Notes under the pieces: model-generated | What the model saw: the letters and a program-made list of their open reading frames with translations, nothing else | Told to the model about the DNA's origin: nothing | Databases searched by the model: none | Position numbers and translations under genes: made by a program | Part shown: positions 6,155 through 12,849 of the stretch, piece after piece | Layout: the number at the start of each line of letters is the position of its first letter | Numbering within the stretch: position 1 is the stretch's first letter | Source of the DNA: Oscillospiraceae bacterium | GTDB taxonomy: Bacteria; Bacillota_A; Clostridia; Oscillospirales; Oscillospiraceae | Assembly: GCA_017539885.1 (NCBI GenBank) | Contig: JAFYCC010000038.1 | Coordinates: 1-20,388 of the forward strand | DNA length: 20,388 nucleotides | Reading direction: 5' to 3'

Positions 6155-6199
6155 CATAACGAAGAAGTCCGGCCGAAACGGCCGGACTTCTTCGTTATG
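6155..6199. terminator. Long perfect hairpin, probable bidirectional terminator between convergent genes
   Basis: Arms 6155-6174 and 6180-6199 are perfectly complementary over 20 bp around the 5-base loop GAAAC. It sits 14 bases after the yebC stop and 8 bases after the DUF4956 stop, which face each other. Neither side has a strong T-run; the CTTCTTC inside the 3' arm on each strand may serve in its place. The near-symmetry suggests use in both directions. Length and GC-rich core make it a strong RNA hairpin on either transcript. Confidence 0.75.
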
Positions 6200-6207
6200 A
6201 GGCTGAT

Positions 6208-6879
6208 TCAGAGCGTATTCGCTTTTTCAGTGAAAGGAAGCAGGGAAATCTCCAGGTTTCCGTTCTTTGTCCGGAGCTCGTCGATGAAAGCCTTTTCTTC
6301 AGACGGATCTTTCATCTGTACACGGAAGGAGAGACGGAACATCGAGCCCATACCGGTCGTCTTCACGCCGGCGTTTTCCGCCTTTTTAAGGTAATGCGTA
6401 AAGATGTCGTCAAAAGTGCCGTTATACTCCAGTGTTTCAGGAATCGTGATCTTTAGAAGCAGATCTTCTGAATTGCTTTTATGATCAAAGATCGGCAGCG
6501 AAGCAATGAGATAATACAGGACTGCGAGCCCTATCAGGATAACTACTCCATACCCCAGGTAACCCATGCCGAATGCGATACCGGAACCCATTGCAATCAG
6601 GATTGTTGCGATTTCATCTGCACTTCCCTGGGCCGAACGAAACCGGATGAGCGCGAATGCGCCACCGATCGCTACCCCGGCGCCTATGTTGCCGTTTACG
6701 AATGTAATGACGGAAGCTACGATGAGCGGGAGCAGCGTCGTGACGAGAAAGAAACGCTTCGCAGAGCGTATGCGGAAAGACATAAGCCAGGAATACACAA
6801 GTCCGGAGACTAGTGCAACGGCTGCCATTAGGAAAAACTCACCCGGAGTTACGGAGGAAGTATATATGGAATCAAACAT
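6208..6879 (-). CDS. DUF4956 family membrane protein
   Basis: This 223-residue integral membrane protein matches the DUF4956 pattern. Hydrophobic segments run at about 15-35, 43-61, 66-80, 91-107 and 109-130, with the family core GGAFALIRFRSAQGSADEIA between the third and fourth. The C-terminal 90 residues (from SEDLLLKITIP to LEISLLPF) look soluble and alpha/beta, ending with ELRTKNGNLEISL. The biochemical function is unknown; the family commonly sits beside VTC-domain genes, as here. Its ATG lies six bases after the VTC stop, so it is the last gene of the operon, ending at the hairpin 6155-6199. The membrane core plus soluble tail recalls MgtC-type proteins, but that is only a resemblance by eye. 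Confidence 0.85.
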   Translation of the reverse strand: MFDSIYTSSVTPGEFFLMAAVALVSGLVYSWLMSFRIRSAKRFFLVTTLLPLIVASVITFVNGNIGAGVAIGGAFALIRFRSAQGSADEIATILIAMGSGIAFGMGYLGYGVVILIGLAVLYYLIASLPIFDHKSNSEDLLLKITIPETLEYNGTFDDIFTHYLKKAENAGVKTTGMGSMFRLSFRVQMKDPSEEKAFIDELRTKNGNLEISLLPFTEKANTL

Positions 6880-6885
6880 ATCTGG

Positions 6886-7629
6886 TCAGTCCTTTCTGCT
6901 CACGCGTATCATCTGCTGTCTGTAAGCTTCACCATATTTTGAAAAACTGCTTTTGTAGATCTGTCCTTCGGAGAGGATGTCCGCAAGCCAGATCGGCATT
7001 GCGTTCTGCACTTTGATCTCCAGTATCGAACCGCCGGGCGGCAGCAATGAGATGCCGTCCATTGAATGCGTTAACGTTAACTGATCAGTTCGGAAACGCG
7101 GATTCTCATCGATCGTCAGGCGCAGATCCCCGTCCTGCTCAAAGTATGCAGTCCGATCGTAGATGATCAGGCAGGAGGGAACAAGCGTCTGATAGAAATC
7201 GCGAAAGGTCGTGATCTCGCTGTTGATCTGACCGCCGGCACATATATCACCCTCGCATGCGAAGAACTTTTGAACGAGCGGAATTGTCGTTTTTACGCGA
7301 CGCTTGTAGACGATACCGTAAGCTTTGCGTTTGAGCTCAAGAAAGACGGGAGATTGCTCTGTTGCGAGTCCGTAGGATCGTAGGCGGATCTTTTCCTTGA
7401 ATTCAGGCTTTTCCAATGAGGCCCGGATCAGACGATAGTTCGGCGTGTCATAATAAAGCGAGGCGATTGATGTTTTCCCAAACTGATCCACCTCCATATG
7501 ACCATGAAGACGGCTCTTTAAATAGGCAGCTTTTTCTTCGCTCAGAATGTATTTCAGTTCAACGCGCTTCATGACAACTATCGGGTTATCCGGATTGGCG
7601 GTTGTCGGCGCGGAAACGGATTGTATCAT
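6886..7629 (-). CDS. VTC-domain protein (polyphosphate polymerase-like)
   Basis: This 247-residue protein has the triphosphate-tunnel (CYTH/VTC) fold of the yeast Vtc4 polyphosphate polymerase core, which makes polyphosphate from ATP. Tunnel-lining residues can be followed in order: RVELKYIL near residue 22, SLYYDTPNYRLI, the RxR pair in KIRLRSYG, LELKRKAYGIVYKRR, YDRTAYF, LRLTID and the late acidic-basic pair in ILEIKVQN. Nothing essential appears missing. There is no SPX domain and no membrane segment, so membrane linkage would come from the neighbouring DUF4956 protein. I chose ATG 7629 over TTG 7632 because SD GGAGG is seven bases upstream of the ATG. The gene begins 14 bases after the kinase stop. 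In bacteria the catalytic activity of this family is inferred, not generally shown. Confidence 0.88.
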   Translation of the reverse strand: MIQSVSAPTTANPDNPIVVMKRVELKYILSEEKAAYLKSRLHGHMEVDQFGKTSIASLYYDTPNYRLIRASLEKPEFKEKIRLRSYGLATEQSPVFLELKRKAYGIVYKRRVKTTIPLVQKFFACEGDICAGGQINSEITTFRDFYQTLVPSCLIIYDRTAYFEQDGDLRLTIDENPRFRTDQLTLTHSMDGISLLPPGGSILEIKVQNAMPIWLADILSEGQIYKSSFSKYGEAYRQQMIRVSRKD

Positions 7630-7643
7630 CAAAACACCTCCGG

Positions 7644-8873
7644 CTACAGATCCAGCTGCAGTGTGAAGGTGCCATCGGCGACCCTGGCGCTTACCCTTCC
7701 GTTGTGTGCAAGGGCAACATCCTTTACATAGGAAAGCCCGAGACCGGTATTGCCGGCCGGCGCATTGGACAGGACTGAGAAACGGTCAAAGACCTGATCC
7801 ACTGATCCGTTGGGGAGTTCTGTCGGATTGGATATCGTTAGCCGAATGCGCTCCCTCTCATGCGTCAGGCGGACTTCAACGTTCCCACGTGAATACTTCA
7901 GCGCGTTTTCCATGAGTTCATGGATTGCCTGCCCCATGGCCTCCGGTTCGCCAACGATCAGGACATCTTCAGCAATATCTCGCAGTACGGTAAGATTCCG
8001 TTCGGTAAAACGATCAGAATATCGATCTAAAGCCTCGTTCAGAAGATCGGAAAGACTGAATGACGTTCGCGCCATATCCTGTTCATCAAAAATCGAAAGT
8101 GAAGCAAGACTGCGAACGAGAGAATCCATCTTGCTGACCTGCCTGTGAATGGAACGGGTATGCTCACTCGGCCCGATTTCCTTTTCCAAAAGCTCCGTAT
8201 CCGCATTGATGACAGTCAGGGGAAGCTTGAATTCTTTTTCAGCGTTGGAAATGAACTTTTTCTGCTTGCGATCAGCTTCAGCGAGGGGTGCGAACAGCTT
8301 CCTGCCGACGAGCCGGAGCACCGCATAGCTCAGAAGGACGCCGATCACTGTGCCGCAGATAGAAAATATCAGGATTCGATATGCAGAAAGAAGCTCGCGG
8401 CCTTGGTCAATAACTGTCACAAAAGTCTTGTCGCCCTGTGCGTATACACGATAGCGGTATGTGCCACGCGTCCAGCCGGTGCTGCCGCCGAGCAGGGAGG
8501 AAGCCCATTCGATCGAACCTTCCTCGTCAACTGCGGATATCCTGTGAGATACGATCACTGCGTTTCCGTTTTCAGAAAAGGAAACTGTAAAATACCGGAC
8601 GGAATTGTTGATCTCGGGGGAGTCCGGTCCCATAGGTCCCATCGGTCCCATCGGCGCAGTTGGCTGGCTGTTCGCGTTTTGCTGACCGAAATACAGCTGT
8701 TCACCATGCTTACCGAACTCGCCTTTTCCGGAAGCGATCCTTTGTGTGATTTCATCTGCATCGGTAGCTGCCATAGTGAAATTGATGCCGTTTATGACGC
8801 CAAGCAGCACGACCAGCAGCACGAATACAGATAGTACTGCGTAAAGACGGAACCTAGTTTCTGCTTTAATCAT
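7644..8873 (-). CDS. Sensor histidine kinase-like protein lacking the phosphoacceptor histidine
   Basis: This 409-residue protein has two membrane segments (about 9-29 and 164-190) enclosing an extracytoplasmic sensor region of about 130 residues. A dimerization helix pair and an HATPase domain follow. In the H-box, where FxxxxSHELKTPLT is usual, the sequence reads FISNAEKEFKLPLT: Lys213 (codon AAA, 8237-8235) replaces the histidine and Glu212 the serine. The ATP domain keeps the N-box asparagine (Asn323 in HELMENALKYS), VFDRFS and the G2 box GNTGLGLS. The usual G1 DxGxG is replaced by ISNPTELPNG, as in some active kinases. It may therefore bind ATP but cannot autophosphorylate by the normal route. 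The sensor region carries a three-fold Met-Gly-Pro repeat (residues 75-83). The ATG lies inside the regulator gene end (8-base overlap), so expression is coupled. Confidence 0.9.
   Translation of the reverse strand: MIKAETRFRLYAVLSVFVLLVVLLGVINGINFTMAATDADEITQRIASGKGEFGKHGEQLYFGQQNANSQPTAPMGPMGPMGPDSPEINNSVRYFTVSFSENGNAVIVSHRISAVDEEGSIEWASSLLGGSTGWTRGTYRYRVYAQGDKTFVTVIDQGRELLSAYRILIFSICGTVIGVLLSYAVLRLVGRKLFAPLAEADRKQKKFISNAEKEFKLPLTVINADTELLEKEIGPSEHTRSIHRQVSKMDSLVRSLASLSIFDEQDMARTSFSLSDLLNEALDRYSDRFTERNLTVLRDIAEDVLIVGEPEAMGQAIHELMENALKYSRGNVEVRLTHERERIRLTISNPTELPNGSVDQVFDRFSVLSNAPAGNTGLGLSYVKDVALAHNGRVSARVADGTFTLQLDL
8626..8652 (-). repeat. Three tandem 9-bp units inside the kinase gene
   Basis: Units GGTCCCATA, GGTCCCATC and GGTCCCATC (plus-strand reading) lie at 8626-8634, 8635-8643 and 8644-8652. 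In frame they encode Met-Gly-Pro three times in the sensor domain. Copy changes would keep the frame, so the repeat could vary in length without breaking the gene. Confidence 0.9.
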
Positions 8874-9462
8874 GTATTCTCACCAGTTTAAAGCCTTCCT
8901 GCTTCAGATATCGGATACGCTGCGAGCATCCGATATCAGCTAATTTGGTGTTAATTGAACCGATATGTATAACGTTGGACTCAAAGTCACCAGCGCGCTC
9001 TTCTATCAGGCCACGCAGTATTTCAATTTCTTCAGCCGTCAGACGCCTTGTTCCTATCAAGAACATGGAAACATCGACTTCGATGTCTCCGGAATGAAGT
9101 TCTGCGGAAGAATTCAAATCTTCGCGTATCCTCGAAATCTTCGATTTCAGTTCAGAAGAAGTGAAAGGAAAGGGGAGATAGTCGTTCGCGAGAACTGAGT
9201 CGATAAGCGTTGCAAGACGTGGTTTCGTATTGGTCAAGACCAGGACGGGAATACGCTCCTCGTTGCAGTAGGATACGATCTGCCTGAGAGGTATGCGTGG
9301 AATATCTTCGGTAACGATCAGAAGATCGAACGTTGAGGTACGGAGTTTTGTAAGGATCTGCGTGCCGTCAAAAGCGGTCTCGACGTCCATGCCGTCGCTT
9401 TTGAGAAGCTTTTCATAGCAGCGAAGGAGATCTCTGTCTTGCGCTGAGAAAAGGATCTTCAA
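8866..9462 (-). CDS. OmpR-like response regulator with a degenerate receiver
   Basis: This 198-residue protein has a receiver-like domain (about 1-118) and a winged-helix-like C-terminus (about 125-196). Receiver chemistry is largely gone. The acidic pair after ILFS is Ala7-Gln8, the phosphoacceptor Asp is Thr51 (FDLLIVTEDIP), and the Lys of the usual KPF is Phe98 (YLPFPF). Only the conserved Thr77 (VLTN) remains. The effector domain begins like OmpR (LTAEEIEIL) and ends like it (INTKL, then YLKQEGFKLV), but the middle, normally holding the second helix and part of the turn, seems about 20 residues short. DNA binding is possible but uncertain. It starts at TTG 9462 behind SD GAGGTG and overlaps the kinase gene by 8 bases. 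A phosphorylation-independent regulator or a protein-interaction module are the main alternatives. Confidence 0.82.
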   Translation of the reverse strand: MKILFSAQDRDLLRCYEKLLKSDGMDVETAFDGTQILTKLRTSTFDLLIVTEDIPRIPLRQIVSYCNEERIPVLVLTNTKPRLATLIDSVLANDYLPFPFTSSELKSKISRIREDLNSSAELHSGDIEVDVSMFLIGTRRLTAEEIEILRGLIEERAGDFESNVIHIGSINTKLADIGCSQRIRYLKQEGFKLVRIHD

Positions 9463-9498
9463 CCAGAATCACCTCAAATCTGAATACAGTCGTGGGAA

Positions 9499-11610
9499 TT
9501 ACCAGCGACCGCCCATGCCTCCGAAGCCGCCCATACCACCAGCAATACCGGCACTGCCGACGGTCGCTGAGGTCTGGGTCCAACTAAGGATCTCGCTGCC
9601 GCCTTTTTGGAGCGAGTAATCTTCTCCGACAGACAGCAGATCGGATGAGATCCAGCAGCCGTTGTAATTGCCTTCAAGCGTGAAGCTGAGCAGCGTGTTT
9701 CCGTTGGCATCAACAAGAGTGTAATCACCGGAAGAAAAGCTCGTATTTGAGGAAATGTAAGTGTTTACTGAACTGCCTGAAGGAGTTGTGCAGACGCCTC
9801 CCAGAGCTACGATACTTCCGCCTGTTACATTTACGCCGCCGTCAACGTCCACGGAACCGGCCATGCCGCCCATTGATGCGCCGCCCTTTACAAGGACAAA
9901 CCCGCCGGATACAGAGAAGCTGCCGTTTGAGTCGATTCCATCCGTGTCTCCCGAGGGAGTGGTAACCTCGACATATCCGCCGGTGACGCTTACAAGTGCG
10001 CTTTCGCTGCCCTTGCAGGCGTTGATCCCGTCGTCTTCTCCGTAGACGCGGACCGTCCCGCCGCTGACCAGGATCACGTTGGCCTCAAGCCCCTCGTGGG
10101 ACTGCACTATATCGATGCTTCCGTCAGATATCGTGAGCATGCCGTCAGCGTGTATACCGTCATCTGCTGAGGTGACAACGACCGTCCCACCGCTGATGCT
10201 GATAGTTCCGGTCGACGTCTCGCCGTTTTCCAGCGTCACGCCGGCATTAGCGTGAAATCCGTCGTCCATACTCATCACAGAGATCGTACCCGCCGTGATA
10301 TACACGGCGTTTTCAGCTTTAACGCCTTTGGAGGAATACGTCGTTTTGTCGGAATTGCTTCCGGAACCTGAACTCAGCGTTACCCAGTCAGCTGAGATCC
10401 TGCCGGAAGAAATGCCCGTGATCAGATATCCGTTCATAGCTGTATTTACGGTCTCTCCGCCAGTGCTGGCCGTATAGTTGCTGCCGTCAGGTTTCTCACC
10501 TGATACAACGATGTTGACTAGGAGGTTCTGATAGCCGCTTGGCATTTCTGCCTTTAGGCCGTAATATGCGGCACCGCGTCCGCTGTAGACCATCGTATCG
10601 TACGCACACCGGATCCATACTCCGTTCTCGTCATCGTTATAGAAATAGAAGTAGTAGTCGCAGTTTTCGTCATAATTTGAGGACGGAACGACCAGGTAAA
10701 AGTCTTCTGCAGCTCCCGCGCCTTCTGCATAATCAGAATAGGAAGCTGTTCGGATGTTGATTGCGCAATCTGCTTCATCCTCCGAGATGATCACGTCATG
10801 CGCTGCGCTGAGACCGTCGCAGGCGGCATAAACATCGATCTGTCCTCCTAGAATCGTAATGTCTCCACGCTGATTACCTTTTGCAGAGACGTCGGTATTC
10901 GAGGTCTTAACGCCATCGCCTTCTGTAGAGACAAGAATCAGTGAGCCGGACTTGATCGTAACACTGTCATTTCCTTTGAGCGCTACGCTGGGAGAAGTGA
11001 CCTTCAGCGTCACGTTCTTCACGGAGAGATCGTCTTTCGATTTGACGCCGTTGTCATATGTGGAAGAAACAATGAGCGTTCCTTTGCCGGTGAGTTTAAG
11101 ATCACAGTCAGACCAGATCGCTGCGTCCGCTTCATTGTCGGACGTGTCAGGGTCTCCGTCGCGAAGATCGATGACAGTGTTGTAGCTGCCTTCCTCAGAG
11201 CGAAGCGTCACTTCTGAAGCATTTTTGATCTCAATCGGCGCTTTGTCAGAGCTTGTTATTGTGACATCCTTCAGAATCAGGATGACCTCATCTTCATCAT
11301 CGGCATCAACTACGATTTGACCCTCATCCAGTTTCCCGGAGAGCACGTATTCACCGGCATCGGAGATCGTGTATACACTGCCGCTGCTGTTAACCGCGGA
11401 GGAACCTGTAACGGAAAAGTCTCCGGTTGCCTCCCGGCTCTCGTCAGTCGGATCGGAGAGCGTTTCCGTGTCCGTTGCGGACGAAGCCTGCGAGGGATGC
11501 ACTGACCCTGACGAGGATGCCGCTTTATTCCCGCTGCCGGCGCAAGCGGTAAAAGAAAGGATCAGGGCGACCAATAGAATCAACGAGCAGTATTTTGCTG
11601 CATTATTCAA
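9499..11610 (-). CDS. Surface lipoprotein with beta-helix carbohydrate-binding domain (Cthe_2159-like, DUF4353)
   Basis: This long secreted lipoprotein has about 703 residues. The N-terminus has a hydrophobic signal segment (SLILLVALILSFTAC) ending in a lipobox, so the cysteine should be lipidated and the protein held on the outer face of the membrane. After a Ser/Thr/Ala-rich linker the body consists of short beta-strand repeats typical of a right-handed parallel beta-helix. Recurrent turns are STEGDGVKTS, MDDGFHANA, ADDGIHADG, GEDDGINAC and DTDGIDSNG, resembling the Ca-linked Cthe_2159 family that binds acidic polysaccharides. The tail is Gly/Met-rich (GGMGGFGGMGGRW). I prefer TTG 11610 because SD GAAGGG is ten bases upstream; GTG 11619 is only one base from that SD. 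It is the first gene of the five-gene operon. The ligand is unknown; an adhesin or wall-associated sensor partner is possible. Confidence 0.87.
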   Translation of the reverse strand: MNNAAKYCSLILLVALILSFTACAGSGNKAASSSGSVHPSQASSATDTETLSDPTDESREATGDFSVTGSSAVNSSGSVYTISDAGEYVLSGKLDEGQIVVDADDEDEVILILKDVTITSSDKAPIEIKNASEVTLRSEEGSYNTVIDLRDGDPDTSDNEADAAIWSDCDLKLTGKGTLIVSSTYDNGVKSKDDLSVKNVTLKVTSPSVALKGNDSVTIKSGSLILVSTEGDGVKTSNTDVSAKGNQRGDITILGGQIDVYAACDGLSAAHDVIISEDEADCAINIRTASYSDYAEGAGAAEDFYLVVPSSNYDENCDYYFYFYNDDENGVWIRCAYDTMVYSGRGAAYYGLKAEMPSGYQNLLVNIVVSGEKPDGSNYTASTGGETVNTAMNGYLITGISSGRISADWVTLSSGSGSNSDKTTYSSKGVKAENAVYITAGTISVMSMDDGFHANAGVTLENGETSTGTISISGGTVVVTSADDGIHADGMLTISDGSIDIVQSHEGLEANVILVSGGTVRVYGEDDGINACKGSESALVSVTGGYVEVTTPSGDTDGIDSNGSFSVSGGFVLVKGGASMGGMAGSVDVDGGVNVTGGSIVALGGVCTTPSGSSVNTYISSNTSFSSGDYTLVDANGNTLLSFTLEGNYNGCWISSDLLSVGEDYSLQKGGSEILSWTQTSATVGSAGIAGGMGGFGGMGGRW

Positions 11611-11634
11611 GTAAAACACACCCTTCAGTAAAGT

Positions 11635-11650
11635 GTCGGGACCTCCCGAC
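11635..11650 (-). other. Hairpin at the predicted 5' end of the lipoprotein operon mRNA
   Basis: On the minus strand GTCGGG-AGGT-CCCGAC forms a 6-bp stem with a 4-base loop. The predicted transcription start is about 11651, so the mRNA would open directly with this hairpin, and the SD (11626-11621) follows eight bases later. Such 5' stem-loops are known to protect mRNAs from decay; a regulatory site for a DNA-binding protein is the alternative. Confidence 0.5.
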
Positions 11651-11657
11651 GATTCAA

Positions 11658-11688
11658 ACTATACCCGGAAAACTTAAATCCATCTTAA
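11658..11688 (-). promoter_or_regulatory. Operon promoter with two TTAAG boxes 11 bp apart
   Basis: On the minus strand the -10 is TATAGT (11663-11658). At 17-base spacing the -35 reads AAGATG, a poor match. TTAAGA at 19 bases is the only alternative. Two TTAAG boxes (11688-11684 and 11677-11673) repeat with an 11-bp period, one helical turn, across the -35 and spacer. Direct repeats of this kind are typical of OmpR-family regulator sites. Position fits either activation of a weak promoter or repression. Which regulator binds is unknown. Confidence 0.5.
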
Positions 11689-11710
11689 TTCTATTCGAAA
11701 TATTCCGGAT

Positions 11711-11743
11711 TAGTAAAATAAGAAAGACGCCCTTTCGGGCGCC
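11711..11743 (-). terminator. Rho-independent terminator after mreB
   Basis: On the minus strand GGCGCCC-GAAA-GGGCGTC forms a 7-bp stem with one G-T pair, followed by the T-rich tract TTTCTTATTTTAC. It begins 15 bases after the mreB stop and separates mreB from the lipoprotein operon. Confidence 0.85.
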
Positions 11744-11758
11744 CTTCCGCGTTTATTC

Positions 11759-12790
11759 TCAGCCTTTCATTTGACGGCGGCGAGCAAAGTTTATCATGCC
11801 GTCCTGCATGTTGCCGAGTTTCGGCAACATCTTTCCAGCGCCGTATGCAGCGCAGGATATTGCGTCATCCACAACGGAGGTGCTGATGCCGGTGCGAGAT
11901 CCGATCAGTTTGTCAAAGCCCCAGAGCAGACTGCCTCCGCCGGACATGACGATTCCGTTTTCTGAGATGTCAGCGACGAGTTCCGGCGGCGTACGCTCCA
12001 GAACCATGTGCACGGCTTCCAGAATACGTTCAACCGGCTCCTCGAGAGCTTCGATCATATCATTTGAGCTGATCGAAACCGTACGTGGCAGGCCGGTCAT
12101 CAGGCAGCGGCCCTTGACCTCTTCGAAGCTCAGTTCCTGACGCGGAAACACGCAGCCTATATGCTGCTTGAGTTCCTCAGCCGTGCGCTGACCGATCAGA
12201 AGATTGTGTTTGCGGCGCACATACCGAACGATGGCCTCGTCGAAGGCGATGCCTGCTGTTTTAATGGATTCGCACTCCACAATGCCGCCAAGGGAGACGA
12301 CGGCTGCCTCAGTCGTTCCGCTTCCAATGTCCAGTACCATGTGTCCATCAGGCTTGGATATGTCAATGCCGGCACCCAATGCGGCGGCTACGGCGGTCTC
12401 CAGAAGGTAGACCTTACGGGCTCCGGCTTCGATTGCGGCATCGATAATTGCTCGCTCCTCAACGCCTGTGATACTGCTTGGCACACAAACGATAATGCGC
12501 GGCTTGAACAGGCTGAAAGAGGTGACGCGTTTGATCAGATCCGCAAGAAAGCGCTCGGTCATGTCATAGTCTGATATAACGCCCGCAACTATTGGGTGTA
12601 TAGCGACTATGTTCGCAGGCGTCCGGCCAAGCATCTTCTGCGCGTCGGAACCGATCTTGAGCAGCTTCCCGTTGTTTTTATCTACAGCCAGAACGGTCGG
12701 CTCGCGCAAAGAAATGCCTTTACCCTGAACAAAGACCTGTGAAGAGGCCGTGCCGATGTCAATTGCTATATCTCTTTCAAAAAAGAGCAT
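11759..12790 (-). CDS. mreB: Rod shape-determining protein, MreB/Mbl family
   Basis: This is a bacterial actin homolog that forms membrane-bound filaments guiding the elongation-phase peptidoglycan machinery. From ATG 12790 it has 343 residues. Nucleotide-binding signatures are RDIAIDIGTASSQVF (phosphate 1), LDIGSGTTEAAVVS (phosphate 2) and IVMSGGGSLLWG (adenosine). Other family stretches are GVISDYDMTERFL, VCVPSSITGVEERAI and LLETAVAAALGAGIDI. The start begins MLFFERDIAIDIG, where the N-terminal hydrophobic residues could insert into the membrane. A GTG three codons earlier (12799) is less likely because SD GGAG overlaps it and is eight bases from the ATG. Bacillota often have several paralogs (MreB, Mbl, MreBH) and I cannot tell which this is. 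No mreC or mreD is next to it, which is common for stand-alone paralogs. Confidence 0.92.
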   Translation of the reverse strand: MLFFERDIAIDIGTASSQVFVQGKGISLREPTVLAVDKNNGKLLKIGSDAQKMLGRTPANIVAIHPIVAGVISDYDMTERFLADLIKRVTSFSLFKPRIIVCVPSSITGVEERAIIDAAIEAGARKVYLLETAVAAALGAGIDISKPDGHMVLDIGSGTTEAAVVSLGGIVECESIKTAGIAFDEAIVRYVRRKHNLLIGQRTAEELKQHIGCVFPRQELSFEEVKGRCLMTGLPRTVSISSNDMIEALEEPVERILEAVHMVLERTPPELVADISENGIVMSGGGSLLWGFDKLIGSRTGISTSVVDDAISCAAYGAGKMLPKLGNMQDGMINFARRRQMKG

Positions 12791-12849
12791 TCGTGTCACT
12801 CCAGTCTGTATGCGCCACGTTATCTGCGTTCTAACGGATGGGCAGGCAG

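Follow-up and report, generated by a model that had tools for sequence, protein, structure and literature searches.

A degenerate two-component pair held in one operon with VTC and DUF4956 genes in a clade of Clostridia

In a 20,388-nucleotide stretch of DNA from an Oscillospiraceae bacterium (GenBank assembly GCA_017539885.1, contig JAFYCC010000038.1; the whole stretch is hereafter called the window), we found a five-gene operon in which a response regulator and a histidine kinase, both having lost the residues of phosphotransfer, precede a VTC-domain enzyme and a DUF4956 membrane protein. The pseudo-response regulator, the pseudo-histidine kinase, VTC and DUF4956 form a four-gene core that recurs in related genomes. 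The dead pair is kept in one operon with VTC and DUF4956, which suggests control by direct contact. We therefore propose, with a probability of about 45%, that this former two-component system, free of phosphotransfer, controls the VTC/MgtC-like membrane enzyme by protein contact. The genes of the operon are the following:

9499 to 11619, minus strand: Cthe_2159-type beta-helix lipoprotein (PF14262), an optional partner
8866 to 9462, minus strand: pseudo-response regulator, with a PF00072 receiver and a shrunken C-terminal domain
7644 to 8873, minus strand: pseudo-histidine kinase, with two transmembrane (TM) helices, an outer sensor domain, a DHp domain and an ATP-binding domain
6886 to 7632, minus strand: VTC-domain enzyme of 248 aa (PF09359), starting at TTG 7632 or ATG 7629
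6208 to 6879, minus strand: DUF4956 membrane protein, by profile and model a remote MgtC relative, with an ACT-like domain at the C-terminus after five predicted TM helices

The five genes occupy 6208 to 11619 on the minus strand, with intergenic spacings of 36, −8, 11 and 6 bases. A sequence-only reading of the window had described five minus-strand genes with gaps under 40 bases or overlaps and had taken them for one operon. The spacings agree with this description, and the operon is upheld by an arrangement that is kept across 81 loci.

These loci came from a kinase-profile scan of 84,980 species genomes, which gave at least 371 confirmed relatives; the best 80 loci were kept, making 81 with the window. 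The 80 loci are from metagenome-assembled genomes (MAGs) named as Clostridia, Clostridiales, Ruminococcus, Lachnospiraceae and similar. Forty-nine locus labels carry a RUG number, which we take to stand for rumen, and 17 carry an RGIG number together with a ruminant gut site. The kinase-like gene has VTC directly behind it in 76/81 loci, namely in all 76 with room for it, since the remaining five contigs stop within 119 bp. DUF4956 comes next in 72/81 loci (72/74 with room; the nine misses are seven contig ends and two real ones), and a regulator-like gene lies ahead of the kinase in 76/81 (the five misses are three contig ends and two real ones). The regulator and kinase genes overlap in 68 of 76 loci, with a median spacing of −8. 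The window-like five-gene order, with the lipoprotein directly upstream, was observed in 20/81 loci. Within eight genes of the kinase, in the 73 loci where it was called, Cthe_2159 genes (38/73) and two-component genes recurred, and beyond these no family exceeded 7/73 loci. For the sequence-only reading, a gene order confined to this strain would have been a refutation; instead, the core order is near-universal in the 81 loci, and conservation on this scale puts the arrangement far beyond chance.

In the window kinase, Pfam recognised the ATPase domain (HATPase, PF02518, E 9e-13), while the HisKA match was sub-threshold and Lys213 stands at the phospho-histidine position. The phospho-acceptor histidine was present in 1/81 operon kinases (L043) versus 29/29 bystander kinases on the same contigs (bystanders shorter than 650 aa were counted, and two long frames left out). 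Among the 120 database relatives listed of 1743, none has the histidine and all 120 have the N-box asparagine. This asparagine of the ATP pocket is likewise kept in 81/81 operon kinases (N323 in the window), and PF02518 HATPase_c was found in 43/43 aligned sequences. An AlphaFold2 model of the pseudo-kinase (mean pLDDT 81.7, pTM 0.43) has CpxA, YycG and the pseudokinase DivL among its closest solved structures.

The conservation order of the domains also differs from that of working kinases. Mean identity among the pseudo-kinases was 0.59 for the sensor, 0.57 for DHp and 0.47 for the ATP-binding (CA) domain, whereas 15 canonical bystanders gave 0.77 for DHp, 0.58 for the ATP domain and 0.52 for the sensor. 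The order is thus inverted in the pseudo-kinases, where the outer sensor is as conserved as DHp and more conserved than the ATP domain. As side observations, a strongly conserved outer-face stretch, [MFL]GPMGPxSP (around 8615 to 8660 of the window, kinase residues 73 to 86), lies between TM1 and the sensor strands, beside a low-confidence region of the model; a divergent pseudo-regulator/pseudo-kinase/VTC/DUF4956 operon at L217:1980-5309 has a kinase without the MGPMGPDSP stretch; and the pseudo-kinases terminate on a nearly invariant leucine, which we regard as a lead and not as a test.

The partner of the kinase is degenerate too. The window regulator matched the receiver PF00072 at E 1e-6, just below its cut-off, and otherwise gave one chance-level Pfam match; no DNA-binding domain, Trans_reg_C included, was found in it by Pfam. 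In it, Ala7/Gln8 replace the acidic pair, Thr51 the phospho-aspartate and Phe98 the lysine. The full acidic-pair/Asp/Lys set occurs in 0/76 operon receivers (5 gapped at some columns), compared with 28/31 bystander regulators, the other 3 being gapped there, and the lysine is found in no operon regulator with a letter at that column. Trans_reg_C was detected in 1/50 full-length operon regulators (E 0.0078) versus 28/28 bystanders. The C-terminal domain is missing in 20/76 operon regulators despite the presence of upstream sequence, and is retained with conserved segments in 56/76 (51 full-length frames and 5 cut at the contig start). Judged from sequence, the DNA-binding domain is shrunken or absent in the operon regulators. 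The sequence-only reading had called the signalling pair degenerate and had seen it as rewired away from phosphotransfer; K213 of the kinase, A7, Q8, T51 and F98 of the receiver and the counts of 1/81 and 0/76 bear out both points.

To estimate selection, we used pairwise Nei-Gojobori dN/dS (the ratio of nonsynonymous to synonymous substitution rates) at dS < 1.5, in which the pairs are not independent. The kinase (52 pairs), VTC (163 pairs) and DUF4956 (255 pairs) each had a median of 0.16, and only the regulator, with 0.25 over 7 pairs, stood higher. The pair is held under purifying selection and is not decaying.

In a maximum-likelihood tree of 67 kinases, 28 pseudo-kinases formed one clade (100/100), which fits a single loss. 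We searched 291 genomes of the class with the kinase profile at E <= 1e-60, and 14 were positive, namely G010 (the genome at the centre of this study), G129 (that of L217) and 12 others. All 12 closest canonical kinases keep the histidine, and six have a VTC gene no more than 2 kb away (in G090, G119, G154, G183, G191 and G208; two on the same strand and four on the opposite one), so that a working two-component system was probably already the neighbour of VTC. Moreover, in L149 and L171 canonical regulator-kinase pairs lie directly upstream of VTC-DUF4956-Cthe_2159. As a side observation, two further kinases of these 12, in L225 and L226, have a Cthe_2159-type gene within 3 kb and no VTC there, so that kinases of this group can also stand beside a Cthe_2159 gene without VTC. 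In the family of G010, 3/120 genomes have a kinase that scores more than 400 bits; the pseudo-pair variant is clade-restricted. Across 90 VTC loci of the class, sampled among the stronger VTC matches listed, the best kinase-profile score was 374 bits, against a median of 562 for the operon kinases, whose low-end scores overlap with it. The kinase-like genes checked in 15 of these 90 loci keep the histidine, cut-off pieces aside.

The presumed target of the pair is the VTC-domain protein. It matched PF09359 at E 1.8e-40 (139 bits versus a cut-off of 23), the sole match at E <= 1 in its 248 aa, and no SPX domain was found in it. R83, R85, E99, K101, R160, E205, K207 and K232 are invariant in 26 aligned VTC sequences, the window included. 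The protein aligns to yeast Vtc4/Vtc2, with R83, R85, K101 and R160 falling on Vtc4 264, 266, 281 and 361 (with an offset) and the EIK motif aligned in Vtc2. We take K232 to be the counterpart of Vtc4 Lys-458, a role that, like those of the other residues, is presumed or read by motif. In an excerpt of PMC4641920, Vtc4 Lys-458 is given as catalytic and a glutamate as metal-binding. By alignment, VTC has the residues of an ATP-consuming polyphosphate polymerase, and its product would be polyphosphate. The likeness to yeast Vtc4 lies in the VTC tunnel domain and the aligned residues; unlike Vtc4, the window VTC has no SPX and is encoded beside an MgtC-like protein and a pseudo-signalling pair.

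The operon VTC is the only VTC in 13/16 relatives' genomes, in which PPK1 was found in 6/16 and Ppx/GppA in 1/16 (these are MAGs and possibly incomplete). With PPK1 and Ppx so scarce, many of them might depend chiefly on VTC for polyphosphate synthesis, or VTC may make a different product. VTC occurred in 152/293 genomes sampled from the class and is common in Clostridia; in the literature, we found no described regulation of VTC in Clostridia.

The window DUF4956 matched PF16316 at E 1.5e-6, just below its cut-off. Its AlphaFold2 model (mean pLDDT 77.8, pTM 0.56) has five TM helices and a beta-alpha-beta-beta-alpha-beta domain, and the MgtC C-terminal domains 2lqj and 7qa5 are among its structural matches. 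Compared by hhalign with a profile of 20 MgtC proteins, DUF4956 scored 97.4% (E 1e-11, 207 columns), whereas reversed, column-shuffled and unrelated controls scored at most 0.9% and the C-terminal half alone 7.3%. The MgtC family model PF02308 gave no match for the window DUF4956 at E <= 1, and other post-VTC genes stayed below its cut-off. In a separate genome search, five of eight sub-threshold MgtC-model matches lay directly after a VTC gene, and the DUF4956 profile marks the frame in four of those five, the fifth being in G041. Profile and model thus indicate that DUF4956 is a remote MgtC relative. It resembles the MgtC family in profile and in its layout of a TM part plus an ACT-like domain; it differs in missing PF02308, and no magnesium or virulence context was seen. 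The relationship had been noted before, in a 2025 Streptococcus paper that presents SIR_1592, the homolog in S. intermedius, as an MgtC TM domain joined to an ACT domain (PMC12345266, in excerpt).

By profile, DUF4956 occurs in 82 of the 90 VTC loci of the class and adjoins VTC in 81. The pairing is also known from Pel loci (PMC7112168 and PMC12345266, both in excerpt), and pairs of VTC with a 'tubulin' gene beside CotH appear in an excerpt of PMC2879425 on C. perfringens; the 'tubulin' genes, of 222-226 aa, would be DUF4956. The CotH-polyphosphate polymerase-DUF4956 cluster of Gram-positive Pel loci is thus alike in that VTC adjoins DUF4956. It is unlike in that the operon module has a pseudo-kinase and a pseudo-regulator and shows no recurrent CotH or Pel genes; PMC12345266, as far as its excerpt goes, reports its three-gene arrangement as not found outside Pel loci. 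As a side observation, the genome of L026 has a second, divergent VTC-DUF4956 module right after a CotH-domain frame (G007:C52:61536-63357), so that a single genome can carry a CotH-type module as well as a pseudo-pair-type one.

The lipoprotein matched PF14262 at E 2.2e-73 (247 bits versus a cut-off of 25.8) and, at E 8e-27, PDB 4peu/4phb, deposited as 'Uncharacterized protein'; 4peu is presumably Cthe_2159. By eye, a cysteine follows SFTA in its signal region, and its start is likely TTG at 11610, after AAGGG, rather than GTG 11619. The family is reported to bind cellulose and pectin in the excerpt of PMC6712302. A Cthe_2159 gene immediately flanks the core in 40/81 loci, 20 upstream and 20 downstream. 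In the 37 loci where 2.5 kb or more is available on both sides, it flanks the core in 23 (10 upstream, 13 downstream) and is absent from both flanks in 14. The lipoprotein is a frequent but optional neighbour. The sequence-only reading had it bind an outside polymer; as a fixed receptor it is not supported, given its absence in 14/37 loci and its place at the opposite operon end in 20/81. Furthermore, Cthe_2159 genes are present in 16/16 relatives' genomes, with more than one match in 14, and in such multiplicity the neighbourhood says less about function.

How a pair without phosphotransfer might control VTC can be pictured as follows. A canonical OmpR-type two-component system, probably already near the VTC-DUF4956 pair, lost phosphotransfer, as is seen in the single clade, the missing histidine and receiver residues and the shrunken or absent DNA-binding domain, and was retained under purifying selection together with its sensor and ATP-binding pocket. 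The pseudo-kinase dimer may sense something outside the membrane, and the kept N-box hints that ATP gates it. The pseudo-receiver could serve as an adaptor, and the fixed order and overlapping genes suggest that through it the state of the pseudo-kinase is passed to VTC and DUF4956, which the sequence-only reading had also regarded as the output of the pair, still their probable role. Yeast VTC is under SPX control, and the pseudo-pair would occupy the place of SPX. DUF4956 would anchor or regulate VTC at the membrane; Salmonella MgtC offers a comparison, as it binds the PhoR kinase (PMC6658541). The Cthe_2159 lipoprotein would often join as a surface partner or cargo without being required. 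In the most specific form, the pseudo-kinase, pseudo-receiver, VTC and MgtC-like protein would make one membrane complex that switches the polyphosphate polymerase directly, as SPX does in eukaryotes, and of this form we are rather doubtful.

Several observations weigh against control by contact. The 80 loci were picked by similarity to kinases without the histidine, and the histidine count is thus from a biased sample. One operon kinase, that of L043, carries a histidine at the site and is placed inside the pseudo-kinase clade, and an aspartate still stands at the phospho-site in 35/76 operon receivers. L007 and L036 are without DUF4956, and L037 and L074 without the pseudo-regulator, although sequence is present; with these real losses, neither protein is strictly required. 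The pseudo type occurs in only G010 and G129 of the 291 genomes, and elsewhere in the class VTC-DUF4956 manages without the pair. Finally, four of the six canonical kinases near VTC are on the opposite strand, which makes that linkage looser than the one in the operon. As for L036 itself, its short contig runs into other sequence after VTC (L036:2260-3277), possibly because the locus was rearranged or the contig misassembled or misbinned.

We considered whether the pseudo-kinase instead acts on a real two-component system, through heterodimers or regulator competition, and so tunes transcription, with VTC/DUF4956 merely co-transcribed. RetS-GacS is an example of such action. According to excerpts, the ChrS pseudokinase forms heterodimers with HrrS (PMC9491836), and DivL, among our closest solved structures, is a kinase put to a new use, in that it senses whether a regulator is phosphorylated (PMC4211667). 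In addition, of the 58 loci that have 4.5 kb or more of upstream sequence, 23 (L004, L008, L009, L011, L013, L014 and 17 more) carry a complete canonical regulator-kinase pair there on the same strand; as a side observation, several of these 23 have a Cthe_2159 gene between the canonical pair and the pseudo-pair. However, no canonical pair is within reach in the other 35/58 loci, nor in the window, where the sequence upstream of the kinase runs to about 11.5 kb, and the constant order of VTC after the pseudo-kinase is left unexplained. We consider this explanation unlikely.

It is likewise improbable that the role of VTC/DUF4956 lies with a polysaccharide or protein of the cell surface, and not with polyphosphate storage, and that the pseudo-pair regulates this role. 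In its favour, VTC-DUF4956-CotH adjoin Pel loci (PMC7112168, in excerpt), deletion of the DUF4956 homolog SIR_1592 altered the Pel level and lowered aggregation (PMC12345266, in excerpt), a protein of the cellulose/pectin-binding Cthe_2159 family adjoins the module in half of the loci, and PPK1 and Ppx/GppA are scarce in the relatives' genomes. But PelG is found in 0/16 of these genomes, the module has no other recurrent gene family as a neighbour, the tunnel residues of VTC match an ATP/polyphosphate enzyme, and, in the same excerpt of PMC12345266, the mutant deleted for SIR_1593 (VTC) still aggregated and made Pel.

We also asked whether the operon regulator is an atypical, phosphorylation-independent transcription factor with a membrane partner, whose remodelled C-terminal domain binds DNA and autoregulates the operon. 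Phosphorylation-independent OmpR-type regulators exist, and most operon regulators retain the C-terminal domain with conserved segments, but Trans_reg_C is found in a single one of 50, and weakly, the domain is missing in about a quarter of the regulators and the gene itself in two loci, and we hold this very unlikely. That the pair is a decaying relic of a two-component system, as the lost catalytic residues, the receiver-only and regulator-less forms and the highest dN/dS in the regulator might suggest, is scarcely credible in the face of purifying selection, reading frames that stay open across a single, deeply divergent clade, a regulator-kinase overlap kept in 68 of 76 loci and a sensor whose conservation exceeds that of the sensor in canonical bystanders.

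With DivL of Caulobacter, the pseudo-kinase shares, by sequence and fold match, a histidine-kinase fold without a working phospho-histidine and a kept ATP domain. Unlike DivL, which reads the phosphorylation state of the working receiver DivK (PMC4211667, in excerpt), it has a partner receiver that is dead too, and its neighbour is a metabolic enzyme. With the OmpR-type two-component systems of Clostridia, the pair shares the gene pairing, the domain order and a recognisable common ancestry, and canonical versions also occur near VTC; it differs in having lost the phosphotransfer determinants and a recognisable DNA-binding domain. Pseudo-kinases as such are already known, as the excerpts on DivL (PMC4211667) and ChrS (PMC9491836) attest, but singly; here a dead kinase and a dead receiver are kept together across a deep clade, tightly linked to an enzyme. 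In the open full-text literature, most subscription papers being outside its scope, we found no degenerate two-component pair with VTC or DUF4956. As far as our searches reach, a two-component pair that is dead on both sides and a clade-wide fixture of a VTC operon is new. It provides a tractable case of a two-component system in which contact signalling would have replaced phosphotransfer, and the surroundings of its working relatives can still be read in other genomes. Through it, what bacterial VTC and DUF4956 proteins do and how they are controlled can also be approached. If the most specific form, with one membrane complex, is true, a transcriptional signalling pair has been converted to an allosteric enzyme controller.

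The borders of the operon in the window are marked by two further features:

6155 to 6199, no strand assigned: inverted-repeat hairpin, a probable bidirectional terminator between convergent genes
11721 to 11748, minus strand: terminator-like hairpin with a 12-pair stem and a T-rich tail, between the operon and the upstream mreB-like gene

The hairpin at 6155-6199, which the sequence-only reading had pointed out, is present, with a stem of 22 bp, a loop of 3 bases, −41 kcal/mol and z −10.2. It sits between the end of DUF4956 and a convergent yebC gene, and, flanked by convergent genes, it is probably a two-way terminator. Terminator-like sites such as 11721-11748 numbered 11 in the window versus 8.5 +/- 2.6 in shuffles and are weak when taken alone. 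Promoter-like sites, at 8 versus 6.6 +/- 2.4 in shuffles, were not above chance. No such site lies inside the interval 11658-11688, where a promoter had earlier been placed; the nearest one on the operon strand is at 11688-11717, with 9/12 matches. The gene 5' of the operon, at 11759-12799 of the window, encodes an MreB/Mbl family protein.

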